This document shows, in pieces, positions 26,844-36,589 of a stretch of 64,000 nucleotides of DNA. The notes beneath the pieces were generated by a model that made no database searches, was not told the DNA's origin, and worked only from the letters and a program-made list of their open reading frames with translations. The DNA is taken from the NCBI GenBank assembly GCA_944324455.1, contig CALUWJ010000004.1, positions 1 to 64,000 on the forward strand, given 5' to 3'. Positions within the stretch are counted from its first letter, which is position 1, and each line of letters starts with the position of its first letter. The position numbers and the translations under genes were made by a program. This DNA is from Candidatus Gastranaerophilales bacterium. Its GTDB lineage: Bacteria; Cyanobacteriota; Vampirovibrionia; Gastranaerophilales; Gastranaerophilaceae.

Positions 26844-28952
26844 TTATTTATATATTATTTTTCCATTTTTAATTGTATTTGTTTTATATACCGACATATT
26901 AGGGTTCATTAAAGACATAAATTCAATATCAGCTGACATATTATGCAGATAAACTACGCCATATTTACCTTTAATATAATCTTTTTTTGAAATCTTTTTT
27001 AAATATTTCATAGAATTTGTATCAACATAATGCCAGATTATTTTGTTGTTATCTTTTAAATTTGGAAAATAATCAAGATAATCTTCTCTATCATTTGTAA
27101 TTGCGTGGATTTCATAGTTTGATGGATAATTTTTTATGTCATTCTGAATAAATTTCATAAAATCATCTAATCTATACATCTCTCTTAATGGCATAGGATG
27201 TGTCATAGATAAGCAAATTGCAAATAAAATTATTGAATAAATCCCTTGCAGCATTCTATAAATCTTGTTTTCTTTAATAAAATGAAAAATAGAACTTATT
27301 GAAACAATTTCCAATAAAAATAAAAGCCCATAGCCTGCTAAAAGTATTCTTTTGTGTAAAATTGGTTTAATATAAATTGAAATTATTGATGAAATAATTA
27401 AAATAAAAGCAATTGAATAAATTAAATATATAAATAAATTTTCTTTGTTTATGTCTTTTTTAAGATTGATTTTATTCAGCCATTTATCAGGTAAAAATGA
27501 CATAATAAGTGTTATAAATAAAACTATACATAAAATTAAAAATACGTATTTATTTATAAAATATTCATTTATTGTATATAAAAAAGTGTTTTTGGATAAT
27601 TCATCTATCCAAGAGTTAAAGCCTTGATTAAATGAGGTTTTGTAGATATTTAATAAATAAGGCAAAAATGATAAACCGATTAAAATATTAGCTATCAAGA
27701 ATTTTAAAAGTTCTTTTTTTTCTTTTAAAAGGCTAAATATTCCCCATAAAAAATTGCCTAAAATGAAGATTGTAAGTATATAGTGGGTATTTATTACCAT
27801 GATTGATAATATTGAAAATATAATAAGGTTTTTGGTTTTTAAATCTTTTAAATATTTAAATAAAAAATAAATTACAGCTAAACTTAAAAACATTGCCATA
27901 GAATAACATCTTGCTTCTTGAGCATGATATATAAAAATTGTATTAATAGAAGCAAAAAAAGCACCAAATATTGCTGTTTTTGTGTTTTTAGGGTCGTTAT
28001 CTTTTAATAATAAAAATGTGGTTGGAATAATTAATATGCTAAAAATTAAAGGTAAAATTCTTAAAACTAAGTCAGATGAATTAAAAATTTTAGAAATAAT
28101 ATATTCAAAAATAAAGAACATTGGAGGATTTCCGGGGTCATTAAATGTTGAGATAAAATTTTTAATTGCAGTGGTTTTAGTGTAAATTTCATCAAGCCAC
28201 AAGGGATATTCTAAAAACCCAACAAGCCTTAAAAATATTCCTAAAATAATTATTGCACTAAGAGCATAATAAGGTGTGTTTTTAGGCAGTTTAAAATTAA
28301 AAATTTCTTTTTTGAAGTTATAAATTAAATAAGCAACAAGTAGCCAAAAATATGGAATAATAAAAATTTGCCAATTATAAAATAAAGCTAAAAATAAATT
28401 ATGAATATGAGATAAATAACCTTTGTAATTGCCTTTAAAATTTAATTGATAAGCGTTATAATTTTCTTTTTCACCATCTGTTTCCATTGTAAAATGTTTC
28501 TTTTTTAGTTTCAAAAGGTCATTTTTATTGTAAAATTCGGTTTTTTGCCCTGTATATAAGCTTAAATTAACAACGCTGTTTTCAAAATCTTTAATGTCAT
28601 CAGGATAAGCTATATAGAGATTTTTTATTTTTGAATCAGAAAAACCAACGATTTCATTATTGAATTTAATGCTGTAAATATTTGAAATGCCGTTGTTTTC
28701 AAAATTTAAACAGTAATCATTAAAACAGGCAAAAATATTTTTATTGTATTTCTTGTTTAGTTCAAGATTAATTGTAATAGGGTTTAGAGGGGTATTAAAT
28801 CCTTTAATTTGGAATTTATACGGATATTTTAAAAATATTGAAAGTATTGAATATAAGCTAAAAATAATTAAAATCCAAAATGCGGTTTTGATTATTTTAT
28901 TTTTTCTTTTTTCAATTATTGAATTATCCACAAATACCTCTTTCGATATCAA
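26844..28952 (-). CDS. GT39/PMT-like membrane glycosyltransferase
   Basis: A 702-aa polytopic protein: one N-terminal helix (about 20-42), an extracytoplasmic domain (about 45-190), then about ten helices. RLVGFLEYPLWLDEIYT near 243-260 contains the Asp-Glu pair typical of GT-C enzymes of the ArnT/PMT group, followed by GNPPMFFIFEYI and HAQEARCYSM. Such enzymes move sugars from polyprenyl phosphates to lipids or proteins on the outer face of the inner membrane. The acceptor is unknown. Confidence 0.75.
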   Translation of the reverse strand: MISKEVFVDNSIIEKRKNKIIKTAFWILIIFSLYSILSIFLKYPYKFQIKGFNTPLNPITINLELNKKYNKNIFACFNDYCLNFENNGISNIYSIKFNNEIVGFSDSKIKNLYIAYPDDIKDFENSVVNLSLYTGQKTEFYNKNDLLKLKKKHFTMETDGEKENYNAYQLNFKGNYKGYLSHIHNLFLALFYNWQIFIIPYFWLLVAYLIYNFKKEIFNFKLPKNTPYYALSAIIILGIFLRLVGFLEYPLWLDEIYTKTTAIKNFISTFNDPGNPPMFFIFEYIISKIFNSSDLVLRILPLIFSILIIPTTFLLLKDNDPKNTKTAIFGAFFASINTIFIYHAQEARCYSMAMFLSLAVIYFLFKYLKDLKTKNLIIFSILSIMVINTHYILTIFILGNFLWGIFSLLKEKKELLKFLIANILIGLSFLPYLLNIYKTSFNQGFNSWIDELSKNTFLYTINEYFINKYVFLILCIVLFITLIMSFLPDKWLNKINLKKDINKENLFIYLIYSIAFILIISSIISIYIKPILHKRILLAGYGLLFLLEIVSISSIFHFIKENKIYRMLQGIYSIILFAICLSMTHPMPLREMYRLDDFMKFIQNDIKNYPSNYEIHAITNDREDYLDYFPNLKDNNKIIWHYVDTNSMKYLKKISKKDYIKGKYGVVYLHNMSADIEFMSLMNPNMSVYKTNTIKNGKIIYK

Positions 28953-29003: not shown

Positions 29004-30056
29004 ATGGAAAAAATACAAATAAAAATTGGAGATGTAAAAATTGGAGCAGGTGCACCTATTTCAATTCAATCTATGACAAACACCAAAACTGATGACACAT
29101 ATAAAACCCTAAAACAAATCGAAGCTTTAGCTAATGAGGGGTGTGAAATAATAAGGCTTGCTGTTTTAAATAAAAATTGCGCTTATGCTCTAAAAGAAAT
29201 TGTTAAAAATTCACCCATTCCAGCAGTTGCTGATATTCATTTTGATTATCGTTTAGCACTAATCGCTATGGATATGGGAATAAATGCTCTTAGAATTAAC
29301 CCTGGTAATATCGGCAATATTGAGCATACAAAAAGAGTTGTTGAAATGGCAAAAAAAACCAATACCCCGATTAGAATAGGAGTTAACGCGGGTTCATTAG
29401 AAAAAGACTTATATGAAGATAAAACCCTTAGTCTTGTAGATAAAATGATTATTTCAGCTAAAAGGCATATAAAAATTCTTGAAGATTTAGATTTTCATTT
29501 AATAAAAGTTTCTCTAAAATCCTCTGATGTTATGACTACAATAAAAGCTTATGAAAAAATATATAATGAAATTCCATATCCTTTGCATATAGGTTTAACT
29601 GAAGCAGGCACTTTAAGAGGCGGAATTGTTAAATCTTCAATTGCAATAGGAGCACTGTTATCTCAAAATATAGGTGATACAATAAGAGTCTCCCTAACAG
29701 AAGACCCTATTGAAGAAGTTAAACTTGCAAAAGAAATTTTAAAAACACTAGGATTAAAAAAAGGCGGAGTTAATTTTATTTCTTGTCCTACATGCGGAAG
29801 AACACAGATTGATTTAATCGGATTAGCTAAAAAAGTGGAAGAAAGATTTTCAAATATTCAAGCGCCGATTACAATAGCAACTATGGGTTGTCCTGTTAAC
29901 GGTCCAAAAGAGGCAGCGGGGGCTGATTATGGAATTGCAGGTGCAATAGGTGAAGGATACATATTTAAAAAAGGACAGATGATTAAAAAAGTTCCTCAAG
30001 AGGAATTATTAAATGAGCTTGAAAAAATAATCTATTCGGACTTAAAAATATCTTAA
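29004..30056 (+). CDS. ispG: 4-hydroxy-3-methylbut-2-enyl diphosphate synthase IspG
   Basis: A 350-aa 4Fe-4S enzyme of the MEP isoprenoid pathway, converting MEcPP to HMBPP. The TIM barrel begins GAPISIQSMTNTKT. Cluster cysteines are Cys261 and Cys264 (SCPTCGRTQ) and Cys296 (MGCPVNGPKEA). The length is the short bacterial type without the plant insert. It shows that isoprenoids come from the MEP rather than the mevalonate route. Confidence 0.95.
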   Translation: MEKIQIKIGDVKIGAGAPISIQSMTNTKTDDTYKTLKQIEALANEGCEIIRLAVLNKNCAYALKEIVKNSPIPAVADIHFDYRLALIAMDMGINALRINPGNIGNIEHTKRVVEMAKKTNTPIRIGVNAGSLEKDLYEDKTLSLVDKMIISAKRHIKILEDLDFHLIKVSLKSSDVMTTIKAYEKIYNEIPYPLHIGLTEAGTLRGGIVKSSIAIGALLSQNIGDTIRVSLTEDPIEEVKLAKEILKTLGLKKGGVNFISCPTCGRTQIDLIGLAKKVEERFSNIQAPITIATMGCPVNGPKEAAGADYGIAGAIGEGYIFKKGQMIKKVPQEELLNELEKIIYSDLKIS

Positions 30057-30127
30057 TACTTTGTAAAAAAGAAAACATGTTATATAATATAATTAAATAT
30101 GGTTAATGTTTGGTAAAGGATATATTA

Positions 30128-30502
30128 ATGAAAAAATTATTAGTATTATTTGGAGTTATGGCATTATTACCTATGGCTTCTTTTGCTTATTATTATGAAA
30201 ATGAAACCGCTGATATTGATGTTTTAAAAGCACAAGGTTATAGTGATAGCGCTTTAATGATAGTTGATTTAACTAATGATATAAACAAAGGCCAAAATGG
30301 AACTTATACACGCCGTTATCAACAGAAATCTCCAAAAGGTAAATTGGGTAATGCTTACACATATTTAAAAAGATATGTTGATCCATTCCAAGATGATGGT
30401 AAATTTGGTGAACATCAAATTAATTTCACAAATACTTGGATGGATGATACCACTCATTATTCTTCAGCTCTTGAAGAAAAATCAAGTGTAGAAAATTTAT
30501 AA
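30128..30502 (+). CDS. Small secreted protein, unknown
   Basis: A 124-aa protein with a clear Sec signal peptide (MKKLLVLFGVMALLPMASFA, cleavage near 20) and a Tyr-rich mature part containing LKRYVDPFQDDGKFGEHQIN. The ATG at 30128 with AAAGGA upstream is preferred to an earlier TTG. No family recognised; probably periplasmic or surface-associated. Its stop overlaps the convergent NuoN-like gene by 6 nt. Confidence 0.65.
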   Translation: MKKLLVLFGVMALLPMASFAYYYENETADIDVLKAQGYSDSALMIVDLTNDINKGQNGTYTRRYQQKSPKGKLGNAYTYLKRYVDPFQDDGKFGEHQINFTNTWMDDTTHYSSALEEKSSVENL

Positions 30503-31903
30503 AAATATTTTTACTACCAAAAATAATATTGAAAAAACAGGAACAACGTAATTAATCGTTGTTCTTTTTTTGAACTTATTTTTTAACAGCATTTTGTCAA
30601 AATGATAAATATTTTGTATTACTTTTAGAGAACTTAATAAAATCATCATAAAAGCAAAGACTATCAATATAACAGCAGTGTATGCAGATATGTCAAAGAG
30701 ATAAATGTTTTTAACTATTTGTAGAAAAGATTTTGAAATATCGCTATATACAACAGATGACATCATAAGTATGAGTATAGATAAAATCAAAGCATAAAAT
30801 CTGTTGTTAAAAAATATGCAAGAAATAGAATTAAGATTTATTTTATTTACACCAAAATTAATTTTTAAAATTGCTAATAGCGAATATATGCCTAAAAATA
30901 AAATAGCGCAATTGAAAGCGGTTTTTATGTTGAAAATATTAGAGCCAAAAAGAATTATATTTAAAATTATGAGATTATTAAAAATACAATTTGTATTTGC
31001 AAAAAGTTTTATAAGATTTTTTTGTTTTAAGGTAAATATTGAAAATGTTATTATGGAAAAACCTATAAATATGCTTATGGGAATTTGTATTATATCAGAG
31101 TTTATATTAAGAAATAGTGATATTTTATCAAAAGCGCAAATTCCAATATAGGGTAAATACATAAATAAAAGCGCGTTATAAGAGAGATTTGTTTTGTAAT
31201 TTTTATCCAGTTGATAATTATAAAAAGGAAATAAACCGATTTTTAATAAAATTGATAAAATTAAGCATACTTTAATAATATTTGATTGCAGATTATTTTC
31301 AATTAATAATGTAAGAATATAAAACGAATAAAATAAAAAGCTTGAACATAATGATAAGAATATAAAATCTTTAGAATAAACTTGATATTTTCTTATTCTC
31401 ATATTTGAAGCAAATTTATAGATTAAAAATACACTTAAATCTAAAAATATAAAAATTAATAAAAAACTCATGCTTGAAGTAAGAAAACTTCCCATCAAAG
31501 ATAATAATAAAAGTATAGTGTTTAATATCGGAGTTTTGAACTTTATTTTTCGGTTTAATTGATAGTGTGTAAATAAAAATAATAGTAATAATAAGTTTAG
31601 CGATATTTTAATTAAAATTGAGGTTTTATCTATTATAAAAAGACCATTTAAAAAAGAAACGCTGAAATCTTGATTATAGAAAAAATTTTTAAAATATATT
31701 GAACCAGATATAATTAAATTTAAAATTAAAGCTCCGTTTGTAATAAAGTCGGATAATCTTTTTGTATTTAATTTTCTTTTGAAAAATAAAAAGAAAAACA
31801 TATTTAAAATAATACCGATTATACAAACAATCTCGGCTGAAAAAAATGAAATAAATTCATTTAGCATAATTTGATTATTAAAGTTTAAAATAATATTTTC
31901 CAT
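30497..31903 (-). CDS. NuoN-like antiporter-type membrane protein (degenerate)
   Basis: A 468-aa, Phe/Ile/Leu-rich polytopic protein with about 13 helices. LLKIGLFPFYNYQLDKNYK near 223 resembles the NuoN block usually reading FKIAAVPFHxWxPDVYEG, so one channel Lys is kept, but the following Pro/Asp/Tyr and Gly-Ala-Pro-Thr residues are gone. Third in a minus-strand L-M-N order cluster, 3 nt after the NuoM-like gene. Function as a real proton-pumping subunit is doubtful. Homology by eye only. Confidence 0.5.
   Translation of the reverse strand: MENIILNFNNQIMLNEFISFFSAEIVCIIGIILNMFFFLFFKRKLNTKRLSDFITNGALILNLIISGSIYFKNFFYNQDFSVSFLNGLFIIDKTSILIKISLNLLLLLFLFTHYQLNRKIKFKTPILNTILLLLSLMGSFLTSSMSFLLIFIFLDLSVFLIYKFASNMRIRKYQVYSKDFIFLSLCSSFLFYSFYILTLLIENNLQSNIIKVCLILSILLKIGLFPFYNYQLDKNYKTNLSYNALLFMYLPYIGICAFDKISLFLNINSDIIQIPISIFIGFSIITFSIFTLKQKNLIKLFANTNCIFNNLIILNIILFGSNIFNIKTAFNCAILFLGIYSLLAILKINFGVNKINLNSISCIFFNNRFYALILSILILMMSSVVYSDISKSFLQIVKNIYLFDISAYTAVILIVFAFMMILLSSLKVIQNIYHFDKMLLKNKFKKRTTINYVVPVFSILFLVVKIFL
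30541..30571 (+). terminator. Terminator of the secreted-protein gene inside the convergent CDS
   Basis: An 8-bp perfect stem (30541-30548 with 30557-30564), 8-nt loop, then eight T. It lies 39 bp after the plus-strand stop but within the 3' coding part of the opposite NuoN-like gene. Confidence 0.75.
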
Positions 31904-31906
31904 TTA

Positions 31907-33364
31907 TTAACTTCCAAAACTAAAACTATTTACCATTAAATCATATATATATTGATAACCTAGAGTCATAATTATTGTTAAAAATATAAGAATATAAAAA
32001 CAAAATAAGTTGCTTTTTATTGTGAAAAATTTAAAATCAGGTTTTTCAATCGGTTCAATTATAATTTTGTTGGCAAAATTTAACATAGCTAAATTTATCA
32101 TAAATAAACCAACTAAAAGAATATAGCCGGATAAATTTAAAATAATTCCTTCGTAATCAAATGAAAATATAGAAGATAAAACAATAAAAGTGGTGCTAAA
32201 CATTAATAAAAACGGTGTTCTTATTAAATTTAGAATTGAAAATAAAAATATTAACAATAGAGATTTTTGTGTAATTTTTTTAAAATCTTCAATTAAATCT
32301 GTTTTAAATTTATTTATAAGCACGGTTATTATAAAACCTAAAAGCAGATATGAAATAATTAAAGATAAAATATAGTAAATAAATTGGCTTATACCATCTG
32401 AATTAAATATAAATAAAACAAATAATCCGATAATAATGTTTGGAATTATTGAATTTTTAAAGAAATTAATTACAGAGTTTGCTCTAAAAGATAGAATAAT
32501 ATAATACATGAAATTAAAAATTAAATAAAAAGCAATGTATTCTTGATAATGATAGATTAAATAATCAAATGAGGGATAAATTTTAAATAATAAAACTAAC
32601 CCTATTAAAGCGCAAGATATTGTGTTGATTATAGAAATATAGTTATTAGAAATTGTTAAATGTTTAATTGAATTATTAAATGGAATAAAATTAAAAAATC
32701 TGAAAATTAAAATCAAAAACCCAATAAAAGCAAGGGTAGCAGAAAAATCGCTGATATGATATAAATTGTCTATAATATTAGAATAGCTTAGATTTATGTT
32801 ATTTATTAAAAAATATCTTATAAAATCATATCCCATTAAAAAAATTGCCAAAAGAAAAATAAAACAATCTTCAATGAGCTTGAATTTTAATATGTTGGTT
32901 TTTTTGGTTGGGTTTATAAAAATATTTTGCATAAAATAGAAAATTAATAGAATTAAAAAAATAGAACTTAAAGAAATAAATATGTTATCTGTTAAAATAA
33001 ACCCTTGAATTATTCCTAAAAGCAAAATTAAGGTTGAATAAAAAGCTCTGTGCGATTTTGATATGATGTTTTTTGAAAATATTGAAAACAACATAAAAAT
33101 AAGCGCTGTAAATAATAAAATTAATGATGAAGTGTTGTTTAGCGAAAAATTTAAATTAAACAGTGAAAAATCAGTTTTATTAATAAGAAATAAAACACAA
33201 GAAATTACAATAAAATTAAAAACTAAAAAAGTATTTGAAATGTTTCTTATATGTATCGGGTTTTTGACAAAAAAACCGATACCTAAAATTCCTGAAAGAA
33301 TAAAAGGTAAAAACATTGAAAGATTTAGTATAATATTTTTTATATTTTCAATAATTTCAAGCAT
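31907..33364 (-). CDS. NuoM-like antiporter-type membrane protein (degenerate)
   Basis: A 485-aa polytopic protein. The ATG at 33364 follows GGAG and is preferred to an upstream TTG. The stretch LAFIGFLILIFRFFNFIPF near 220 occupies the place of the NuoM block that normally ends KVPLFPFHxWLPDAH; the channel Lys and the His/Trp/Leu/Pro block are lost. LNLIRTPFLLMFSTTFIVL near 390 matches the GLPxxxGFxGE helix in position. It overlaps the NuoL-like gene by 8 nt. Confidence 0.5.
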   Translation of the reverse strand: MLEIIENIKNIILNLSMFLPFILSGILGIGFFVKNPIHIRNISNTFLVFNFIVISCVLFLINKTDFSLFNLNFSLNNTSSLILLFTALIFMLFSIFSKNIISKSHRAFYSTLILLLGIIQGFILTDNIFISLSSIFLILLIFYFMQNIFINPTKKTNILKFKLIEDCFIFLLAIFLMGYDFIRYFLINNINLSYSNIIDNLYHISDFSATLAFIGFLILIFRFFNFIPFNNSIKHLTISNNYISIINTISCALIGLVLLFKIYPSFDYLIYHYQEYIAFYLIFNFMYYIILSFRANSVINFFKNSIIPNIIIGLFVLFIFNSDGISQFIYYILSLIISYLLLGFIITVLINKFKTDLIEDFKKITQKSLLLIFLFSILNLIRTPFLLMFSTTFIVLSSIFSFDYEGIILNLSGYILLVGLFMINLAMLNFANKIIIEPIEKPDFKFFTIKSNLFCFYILIFLTIIMTLGYQYIYDLMVNSFSFGS

Positions 33365-34772
33365 TGTTTTCTCCAAAAAGCACAACAAATATTGTAAGAA
33401 TAACAACAAGTGCTATTATGATAAAAATATTTTTGAATGTTTTAAGGCCTTTATTTCTTATGTTTTTTAGAACAAATAAAGAAAGGATATAATCGAATAG
33501 TTTTAAAATAAACAGCGTAAAATTTTTTGTTATTTTATTATCAATAAAATTTAATATATCAGAAGTGATTGTAGGAATTTTTTCAAAAAATATTATATGC
33601 AATTTTTCCAATAAAAATCCTTTTTGTTTTATGAAAAAATGTTTCTTAAGATTAGTTTTATCTTTATATAATAAAAACGCCAATAAAAATAGAATTAAAA
33701 TATTTAAAATTGCATAAGAAATTAATGTTTTTGTTTTATCGCAAAATAAATAGTTATAAATGAATATTACATTTATTGCTGATATGAAATATCCAAAAAA
33801 TATTTTAATGTTTTTTTCGTAAAGAAGAAATATCAATGAAGTTATAACACTCAAAATTAAAAGAATTTTAAGATAGAATATTGATTTTGGTAAAAATTCA
33901 AAAATCGGCATTGTTTTATATAAAAGTACAAATCCAAATATGCTGTTTAAACAAGTTGCAACAGATAAATATAAAATATTTGATGAATTAACCATAAAAC
34001 TATAAAAGCAGCTGAATGGTATAACAAACATTCTTGTGCTTATTGCGCCAACAAAACAAGATGCACATAAAATAAATTCAATCGGGTTTGCTATTCCATA
34101 TGTGTAGCTGAATAATTCATTTAACTCTGAATAGATTAATGAAGTTGATTGAATATACCCTTGAGATAGTATTGCGTATTTAAATAAAATTAAAATAGAA
34201 GTTAAAAATAAAATATCTCCAATTAAAAATATTCGATAAAATCTTGTTGTGTTATAGTTTGCAACATCTTTAAACAAATCAAAATTTGCAAAAATATAAA
34301 CTAAAATCCCCTGAATTATCCAAAATATTAAACTTTGAATTAAAGAATAGCTTGAAATAAATATGTAAGTATTAAAGCTTAAAAGTAAAAGAAAAATATA
34401 ATATCCTTGTTTTTTAAAGATAAATTCCTTTTTTTTATTAAAATAAATTATTGAAAATATTGAAATTAAAAAATAGACTAAAGCGCAATAAATTAAAAAG
34501 TCGATATTGATTTTATCGATTAATATTCCAAAATTAAGATTTAGTTCCCCGATTGAAATAATATTTTGATTAAAGTTTATAATTGTATCATTTGAATAAA
34601 ACATTTTTAAATAAACAAATGACAATAAGGATATTAAATTAGAAATGCTTGTGCTCCAGTTTAGAATTTTTTTATCTATGTATTGCAGATTTAATTTTGT
34701 TGCAATTAAAAATAATGCCAACAAAAAAGGAAGAAAAATCGCACTGTTACAAATTAAAAAACTAATATCCAT
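33357..34772 (-). CDS. NuoL-like antiporter-type membrane protein (degenerate)
   Basis: A 471-aa polytopic protein and first gene of the three. GILIDKINIDFLIYCALVYF near 85 looks like the NuoL opening helix (FxLDxLSxxM...). The region SCFVGAISTRMFVIPFSCF near 240 stands where NuoL has GKSAQFPxHxWLPDAM and HAATMVxAG; the Lys and His of the proton path are absent. The C-terminal long helix-like tail (about 380-470) is present. It is shorter than true NuoL (about 610). Confidence 0.55.
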   Translation of the reverse strand: MDISFLICNSAIFLPFLLALFLIATKLNLQYIDKKILNWSTSISNLISLLSFVYLKMFYSNDTIINFNQNIISIGELNLNFGILIDKINIDFLIYCALVYFLISIFSIIYFNKKKEFIFKKQGYYIFLLLLSFNTYIFISSYSLIQSLIFWIIQGILVYIFANFDLFKDVANYNTTRFYRIFLIGDILFLTSILILFKYAILSQGYIQSTSLIYSELNELFSYTYGIANPIEFILCASCFVGAISTRMFVIPFSCFYSFMVNSSNILYLSVATCLNSIFGFVLLYKTMPIFEFLPKSIFYLKILLILSVITSLIFLLYEKNIKIFFGYFISAINVIFIYNYLFCDKTKTLISYAILNILILFLLAFLLYKDKTNLKKHFFIKQKGFLLEKLHIIFFEKIPTITSDILNFIDNKITKNFTLFILKLFDYILSLFVLKNIRNKGLKTFKNIFIIIALVVILTIFVVLFGENNA

Positions 34773-34879: not shown

Positions 34880-36589
34880 ATGAAAATGTCAAAACTTTTT
34901 GTTCAAACACTAAGAGAATTTCCAAATGACGCAGAAGCAATTTCGCATAAATTATTAGTTAGAGCAGGTTACATCAAAAAACTTGCAAACGGTATTTATA
35001 CTTATATGCCTTTGGCTCAAAGAGTTTTGACAAAAATATCAAATATTGTTAGAGAAGAAATGAATGCTTCTGGGGCGCAAGAATTATTAATGCCTTTTGT
35101 TCAGCCTGCTGAAGTGTGGCAAAAATCAGGCAGATGGCAAAAATACGGTAAAGAACTTTTAAGATGTAAAGACAGACACGACAATGAAATGTGTCTTGCT
35201 CCAACCCATGAAGAAGTTATAACCAGCGTTGTGGGTGAAGTTGTTAATTCATATAAACAATTGCCTTTAAATGTTTATCAAATTCAAACAAAATTTAGAG
35301 ATGAAATCCGTCCTCGTTTTGGTTTATTGAGAGGCAGAGAATTTATAATGAAAGATGCGTATTCTTTCCATACTTCTCAAGAAGATTTAGAGCGTGAGTA
35401 TGAAGTTATGGGTAAAACTTATACATCTATTTTTAATCGTTGCGGACTTGAAACAAAAGCTGTTCAATCAGATTCAGGTGCAATAGGCGGTGCGGTTTCT
35501 CATGAATACATGGTTTTAGTTGATACAATGGTGGGTGAAAACGATGTATTTTATTGCAAAAATTGTTCATACAGTGCAAATTCTAACCATGCAATTTCAA
35601 AATTGCCGATTGAAATAACTGATGGCGGTTTTGAAAAAGAAGAAATTGTTGATACACCAAACATTAAAACAATTGAAGACTTGGCAAAATTTTTAAACAT
35701 TGATTCTAATTGTATTTTAAAAGCTGTAGCTTATATTGCAGACTCAAGGCCAGTAATAGCTATGATTAGAGGGGATAAAGAAGTTGAAGAAACAAAATTA
35801 ATGAATGCACTAAATGCACTTGAAATTCGTCCTATGGAAAATGAAGAAGTAAGAGAACTTTTAGGAATGGAACCCGGTTTTATTTCTTATAGAAATGTTG
35901 ATAAATCTAAAGTTAGGGTTATTTTTGATAATACCGCAAAAGGAATGAAAAATTTTGTGCTTGGTGCAAATGTTAAAGATAAACACATTGTAGGTGCTAA
36001 CTTAGAAGATGGAATTGAATTTTGTGATATTTCACTTGTAAAAGAAGGTGAATTGTGTCCTGAATGTAATAAGCCATTATATATTACAAGAGGAATAGAA
36101 GTTGGAAATATATTCCAGCTTGGAACAAAATATTCTGAACCAATGGGAGCTTGCTACACTGATGAAAAAGGACAATTGAAGCCATATATTATGGGTTGTT
36201 ATGGTATTGGTGTTTCAAGAACAATGGCGGCTGCTGTTGAAAAATACCATGATGATTTTGGTATTGTTTGGCCGATTGAAATAGCGCCATATCATGTTGA
36301 TATTGTTCCTGTAAATATTGATGATGAAACTCAATCAAAGACTGCTTATGAAATTTATGAAAAATTAATTAAAGCAGGGATTGAAGCAGTTATTGATGAT
36401 AGAGCAGATAGGGCAGGTGTAAAATTTAAAGACGCAGATTTAATTGGTTTCCCAATTAGAATAACAGTAGGAAAAACTATCCAAGAAGGACTTGTTGAAT
36501 ACAAAACAAGAAAAGATGGTGTTATGATTAAATTAACACCTGATGAAGCAGTTGAAAATGTTATAAAATATGTCAAAAAATCCTCTTAA
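34880..36589 (+). CDS. proS: Prolyl-tRNA synthetase
   Basis: A 569-aa class II aminoacyl-tRNA synthetase of the bacterial ProS type. Seen: RAGYIKKLANGIYTYMPLA near 28, LMPFVQPAEVWQKSGRW (motif 1 side), FRDEIRPRFGLLRGREF (motif 2), an inserted editing domain (about 230-400), GCYGIGVSRTMAA (motif 3) and the anticodon-binding C-terminus. A strong AAGGAG site precedes the ATG. It overlaps the next gene by 20 nt. Confidence 0.95.
   Translation: MKMSKLFVQTLREFPNDAEAISHKLLVRAGYIKKLANGIYTYMPLAQRVLTKISNIVREEMNASGAQELLMPFVQPAEVWQKSGRWQKYGKELLRCKDRHDNEMCLAPTHEEVITSVVGEVVNSYKQLPLNVYQIQTKFRDEIRPRFGLLRGREFIMKDAYSFHTSQEDLEREYEVMGKTYTSIFNRCGLETKAVQSDSGAIGGAVSHEYMVLVDTMVGENDVFYCKNCSYSANSNHAISKLPIEITDGGFEKEEIVDTPNIKTIEDLAKFLNIDSNCILKAVAYIADSRPVIAMIRGDKEVEETKLMNALNALEIRPMENEEVRELLGMEPGFISYRNVDKSKVRVIFDNTAKGMKNFVLGANVKDKHIVGANLEDGIEFCDISLVKEGELCPECNKPLYITRGIEVGNIFQLGTKYSEPMGACYTDEKGQLKPYIMGCYGIGVSRTMAAAVEKYHDDFGIVWPIEIAPYHVDIVPVNIDDETQSKTAYEIYEKLIKAGIEAVIDDRADRAGVKFKDADLIGFPIRITVGKTIQEGLVEYKTRKDGVMIKLTPDEAVENVIKYVKKSS

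Follow-up and report, generated by a model that had tools for sequence, protein, structure and literature searches.

NuoL-like proteins are reused outside complex I in the DAB complexes, which consist of DabA and the NuoL-like DabB. As far as gut Melainabacteria are concerned, an 11-subunit complex I has been reported (Di Rienzi et al. 2013, PMC3787301), and a Hyf/Ehr-like complex without the usual Ni-Fe cysteine pairs has been described in them as well (Di Rienzi et al., PMC3787301). The full complex I of these bacteria is, thus, already known; in the literature searched, no report was found of a headless complex I (i.e., one devoid of the redox arm, subunits B, C, D, and I) or of a three-subunit one, which is weak evidence, since most subscription journals lay outside the search.

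The locus described here contains only homologs of nuoL, nuoM, and nuoN (hereafter, the trio) and is located on contig C4 of a genome of 1.76 Mb that is 99.4% complete, in a window (the whole stretch of DNA analyzed) of 64,000 nucleotides. None of the complex I subunits that handle redox and quinone (B, C, D, H, and I) is encoded at the trio locus. The preliminary description of this DNA had stated that the window contains no other nuo gene; this is correct for the window, but the genome also harbors, on contig C11, a Hyf/Ehr-like operon that encodes antiporter-like subunits.

The L-M-N locus and the identity of its products

The three genes are embedded in a conserved slot delimited by ispG and proS (Table 1). 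L and M overlap by 8 nucleotides, with an ATG inside ...AATGCTTGA, whereas M and N are separated by 3 nucleotides, so that the overlapping ends previously claimed for the cluster exist in the first pair but not in the second; this arrangement makes the co-translation of L, M, and N likely. The 3' end of the small slot gene overlaps the N gene by 6 nucleotides. A scan for promoters and terminators at the trio locus gave no signal above shuffled sequences.

Table 1. Features of the L-M-N slot; positions are those of the window.
Feature	Position	Strand	Basis or remark
ispG	29004..30056	+	left edge of conserved slot
Small exported-looking protein	30110..30502	+	slot gene, convergent with N
N-like subunit (NuoN-derived, 468 aa)	31903-30497	minus	ORF, family profile, synteny
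N K221	31241..31243	-	invariant Lys (25/25), corresponds to NuoN TM7 Lys
M-like subunit (NuoM-derived, 485 aa)	33364-31907	minus	ORF, family profile, predicted fold
M R222	32699..32701	-	invariant basic, 25/25 (R17/K8), TM7 break; AF2 helix break 224-230
L-like subunit (NuoL-derived, 471 aa)	34772-33357	minus	ORF, profile match, predicted fold
Predicted lateral (clamp) helix of L, codons 387-437, 51 residues	33462..33614	-	AF2 H387-437, then H443-466
L R247	34032..34034	-	invariant basic, 25/25 (R19/K6), TM7 break; AF2 helix break 249-252
proS	34880..36589	+	right edge of conserved slot

When single sequences were used, only L matched a relevant family (NCBIfam NuoL, E 9.7e-9); M and N had no relevant match in the family searches, and for N both the family and the PDB searches were empty, hence the use of family profiles, i.e., alignments of 25 relatives searched against PDB chains. 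The L profile retrieved NdhF/NuoL (E 9.5e-11), the M profile NdhD/NuoM (E 1.5e-15), and the N profile NdhD-type chains (7.9e-5) and NdhB (NuoN; 1.2e-4), which places all three proteins in the NuoL/M/N superfamily by profile similarity. The trio proteins fall below the gathering cut-off of Pfam PF00361, which only two genes of the genome, both on C11, surpass.

The AlphaFold2 model of M (pLDDT 87, pTM 0.89) has the 14-helix antiporter fold with both broken helices, TM7 and TM12, and its best PDB matches in Foldseek are NdhD, NuoM, and MrpD (TM about 0.8). The model of L (pLDDT 79) matches NuoL, and its C-terminus consists of the 51-residue helix and one TM, arranged like the lateral helix of NuoL. 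N is identified by its profile matches and by synteny, together with its TM7 motif, LLKIGxFP. It can be firmly concluded from the profiles of L, M, and N, the folds of L and M, and synteny that the trio proteins are homologs of NuoL, NuoM, and NuoN, in agreement with the identity and the gene order that had been proposed.

Reduction of complex I in the ispG-proS slot and in the family

The slot layout (ispG-[130-aa gene]-X-proS) was compared among relatives, which are MAGs, many of them labeled Candidatus Gastranaerophilales. The trio is carried by 25 of the 28 genomes of the genus (g1), always with L, M, and N together, and 24 congeners have it in the same slot, where its conservation is about 30-70% vs. 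80-95% for most of the neighboring genes. In the sister genus g37 (G063, L137), the same slot is occupied by the full 11-gene nuo operon, A-B-C-D-H-I-J-K-L-M-N; in another sister genus, g36 (G062, G091, G119, G155; L130, L131, L141), it contains J-K-L-M-N, with borderline profile detection of J or K; in g1, it contains L-M-N; and in the congener G024, it is empty. In the tree constructed on L+M+N, the g1 trio joins g36, and then g37, with support of 100/100 throughout. On the basis of this slot series and of the grouping in the tree, the trio is firmly interpreted as an 11-subunit complex I reduced in place.

Other features of the slot can be mentioned. The small exported-looking protein stays beside ispG whether the slot is full, headless, reduced to the trio, or empty. 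On the other side of ispG, a large membrane protein, possibly glycosyltransferase-like (window 26844-28952), is relocated or replaced by divergent proteins (about 30-50% identity) in several congeners. In G022, the ORFs adjacent to ispG gave no match to the trio up to the contig end; two membrane-type ORFs are located there beside ispG, at the expected trio site (L150:8578-9865), where the contig ends.

The reduction is not restricted to this slot. A NuoD of the complex I type, assigned by length and score, is encoded by 32 of the 146 family genomes sampled, so that the previous view of Gastranaerophilales as fermenters without a respiratory chain is incomplete: complex I as such is not missing from the lineage (see also PMC3787301). 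About 25 of the 146 have NuoK without such a NuoD. Operons A-H-J-K-L-M-N, without B, C, D, and I, were found in g17, g9, and g19 (L102, L132, L133, L128, L135; the g19 cases are G106 and G130, the latter at a contig edge), and J-K-L-M-N operons in g6, g20, g33, g23, and g36. J of the J-K-L-M-N operons was detected by profile in some members only, a right-sized ORF sitting there in the others. MAG incompleteness may inflate single headless cases (G049 is 85% complete), but it hardly explains those operons that lack B, C, D, and I inside long contigs. The L+M+N tree implies at least four changes between the full and the headless state, its starred branches forcing four; this corresponds to four or more losses of the redox arm in the family, the membrane arm being kept each time.

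Further losses concern NuoL. The model suggests that the L-like protein lacks TM12-15 and retains only TM1-11, the lateral helix, and the last TM. The second half of NuoL (TM9-15) was not detected by profile in 25/25 trio members, in g6/g20/g33, or in the headless g19, whereas an HMM of the lateral-helix tail recognized it in 8/8 J-K-L-M-N, 5/6 A-H-J-K-L-M-N, and 3/4 g36 proteins. In the trio, the HMM recognized it in 2/25 members, at the matching C-terminal position (iE 2.5e-6 and 6.1e-5; controls 0); for the remaining members, the lateral helix is assigned from the AF2 model and the alignment. Since TM9-11 appear to be kept in the trio model, the breakpoints of NuoL would differ between lineages. 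The second half of NuoL was lost and the lateral-helix clamp kept, convergently, in three lineages; the persistence of the clamp where parts of the channel have gone suggests that L, M, and N still assemble. At seven loci (L095, L138, L145, L100, L140, L129, L142), NuoL is 385-387 aa long, its first half running straight into the lateral helix, and the TM12 Glu of NuoM is Lys in 7/7.

Selection, proton-path residues, and possible partners

The trio might be a slowly decaying, functionless relic, whose constraint would only reflect the counter-selection of membrane proteins that are misfolded or orphan, for as long as the locus has not been deleted. The trio has diverged far more rapidly than its slot neighbors, and its stem branch is long (2.49 changes per column as drawn in the L+M+N tree). 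Moreover, it is absent from G022 and G024, and is thus dispensable, and the truncations found in G012 (N shorter by the last TM) and G002 (M without TM1-2) fit decay in some lineages. However, purifying selection acts on the trio, if a few times less strongly than on housekeeping genes: the dN/dS values of 12 trio pairs, approximate because the Nei-Gojobori method ignores codon bias and dS is high in many pairs, are 0.08-0.23 for L, 0.12-0.45 for M, and 0.12-0.31 for N (mostly 0.1-0.25; 0.11-0.16 in the closest pair, L042-L046), vs. 0.02-0.09 for ispG and proS. In the headless g33, the value for M is 0.023, with dS 1.67. The preliminary description had argued from the maintained frames against simple decay, and, indeed, these are intact in nearly all 25 species, even among those sharing only about 30-40% identity; apart from the two local truncations, neither the dN/dS near 1 nor the broken frames of pseudogenes were observed. 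In addition, the membrane segments contain invariant polar and basic residues, and genomes of about 1.8 Mb are expected to delete useless DNA. A relic is, on this evidence, unlikely, even if it is the most serious of the alternatives.

As regards the proton path, full complexes conserve the TM5 Glu, TM7 Lys, TM8 Lys/His, and TM12 Lys/Glu. In the 25 trio members, the TM5 Glu is gone from L and M (in N, an Asp or Glu occupies this site in 23/25), as are the TM8 charges and almost all of the TM12 charges, in accordance with the replacement of most proton-path residues noticed earlier. The additional claim that only N keeps a Lys must be corrected, because a basic residue at the TM7 break is invariant in L, M, and N (Table 1) and is the only element of the charge set of a working complex I that the three proteins have in common. 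N K221 presumably corresponds to K217 of Escherichia coli NuoN, while M R222 precedes the canonical Lys column by one position, where a shift in the alignment is possible. Other residues are newly conserved in the trio, e.g., D165, S258, N262, S264, and E319 of L.

The same trend is observed in the four headless lineages, which mostly keep the TM7 basic residue. All four have lost the TM8 His of L; the same holds for the TM12 Glu of M, with the exception of one g19 genome, which has Asp, and of 2/25 trio members, which have Glu. The TM8 Lys of M is lost in all headless genomes but one of g17, and that of N in three of the four lineages. In g37 (L137, L147), the TM8 Lys of both M and N is already replaced, and the complex is complete in L137; charge erosion can, therefore, precede the loss of the redox arm.

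These residues also bear on the possibility that the trio is a Mrp-like secondary cation/proton antiporter driven by an ion gradient, an analogy that might be suggested by the homology of L/M/N with MrpA/MrpD, by the fit of the M model to MrpD, nearly as good as that to NuoM, and by the need of fermenters for pH and Na+ homeostasis. Nevertheless, the charges that Mrp-type subunits use in TM5 (Glu), TM8 (Lys/His), and TM12 are mostly missing, no MrpB/C/E/F/G-like gene is present at the trio locus, and no NuoK/MrpC-like gene was found in the g1 genomes sampled, making this explanation improbable.

Even more doubtful is a role of the trio as an accessory module in the membrane part of the Ehr/Hyf-like complex of C11 or of another oxidoreductase. 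The genome search recommended earlier did recover this operon (L003:335-7581; HyfB-C-E-F-G-I), whose large subunit has CGDS and CGF at the expected Ni-Fe cysteine pairs (as judged by eye) and whose HyfI is fused to a ferredoxin domain. Apart from the Hyf/Ehr large subunit, no NuoD-type protein was found in the genus. Most trio genomes possess a Hyf/Ehr operon, too; however, the trio is present without a detected Hyf/Ehr in G026 (99% complete) and G005, the opposite is true of G024, and the operon already has its own HyfB and HyfF. This co-occurrence indicates that the trio does not need the Ehr-type complex of the genome. Finally, an unrelated polytopic family merely resembling NuoL/M/N, which the failure of M and N as single sequences to match a relevant family might have suggested, is refuted by the corresponding PDB chains that the profiles retrieved, the folds of L and M, and the synteny with full nuo operons.

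A putative redox-independent assembly and its known counterparts

The explanation that we favor, and consider probable, is that the trio, a remnant of complex I at its original locus, is kept as a free-standing, redox-independent L-M-N membrane assembly. An 11-subunit complex I of the NDH-1 type gave rise to it in the ispG...proS slot; B, C, D, and I, which form the redox and quinone arm, would have been lost together with A and H, and J and K later. The remaining L, M, and N, encoded by overlapping or abutting genes of one operon, would form a hetero-oligomer held together by the lateral helix of NuoL. Redox-driven proton pumping by such an assembly would be impossible, and the trio would have a role selectable in the absence of electron transfer; it probably performs a job that needs none. 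The most likely role might be a passive or gradient-driven permeation of ions or small solutes around the TM7 break, a guess from the fold and the TM7 residues. The repurposed complex previously proposed is, thus, plausible and better supported than before, by the synteny series, purifying selection, and newly conserved residues, its new function being putative. A broader and more tentative proposal is that in Gastranaerophilales, complex I repeatedly became a redox-independent, headless module, whose end state might be a complex of three subunits that has acquired a new function in transport or in the membrane, and in which NuoL is reduced to about half a channel and a clamp.

The family represents a natural experiment on complex I, with at least four losses of the redox arm and a membrane arm kept under selection. 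Its lineages keep the TM7 basic residue and the lateral helix and drop the TM8 Lys/His (L, M), the TM12 Glu of M, and, in three cases, the second half of NuoL; comparing what is kept with what is dropped helps to separate the residues needed for redox pumping from those with a structural or other role, a question that the field has yet to settle. Furthermore, nuoL/M/N hits in gut genomes are an unsafe basis for inferring complex I activity.

Among the known systems, the trio shares with the 11-subunit complex I/NDH-1 of gut Melainabacteria the bacterial group, the slot (in g37), the L-M-N order, and its ancestry; it differs in that it lacks A, B, C, D, H, I, J, and K, most of the charge path, and the second half of NuoL. 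The Mrp (CPA3) antiporter subunits MrpA and MrpD resemble the trio in the antiporter-like fold and in the lack of a redox arm, but the trio has a NuoN-type subunit, has mostly lost the catalytic charges, and is devoid of MrpB, C, E, F, G and of a NuoK-like partner. Ehr/group 4 hydrogenase-like complexes are likewise endowed with antiporter-like subunits in fermenters; unlike the trio, which is also found without Ehr, they have their own HyfB/HyfF and redox subunits. Lastly, the trio differs from the DAB complexes in that a DabA-like neighbor is absent from its locus and in that it comprises three antiporter-like subunits rather than one.
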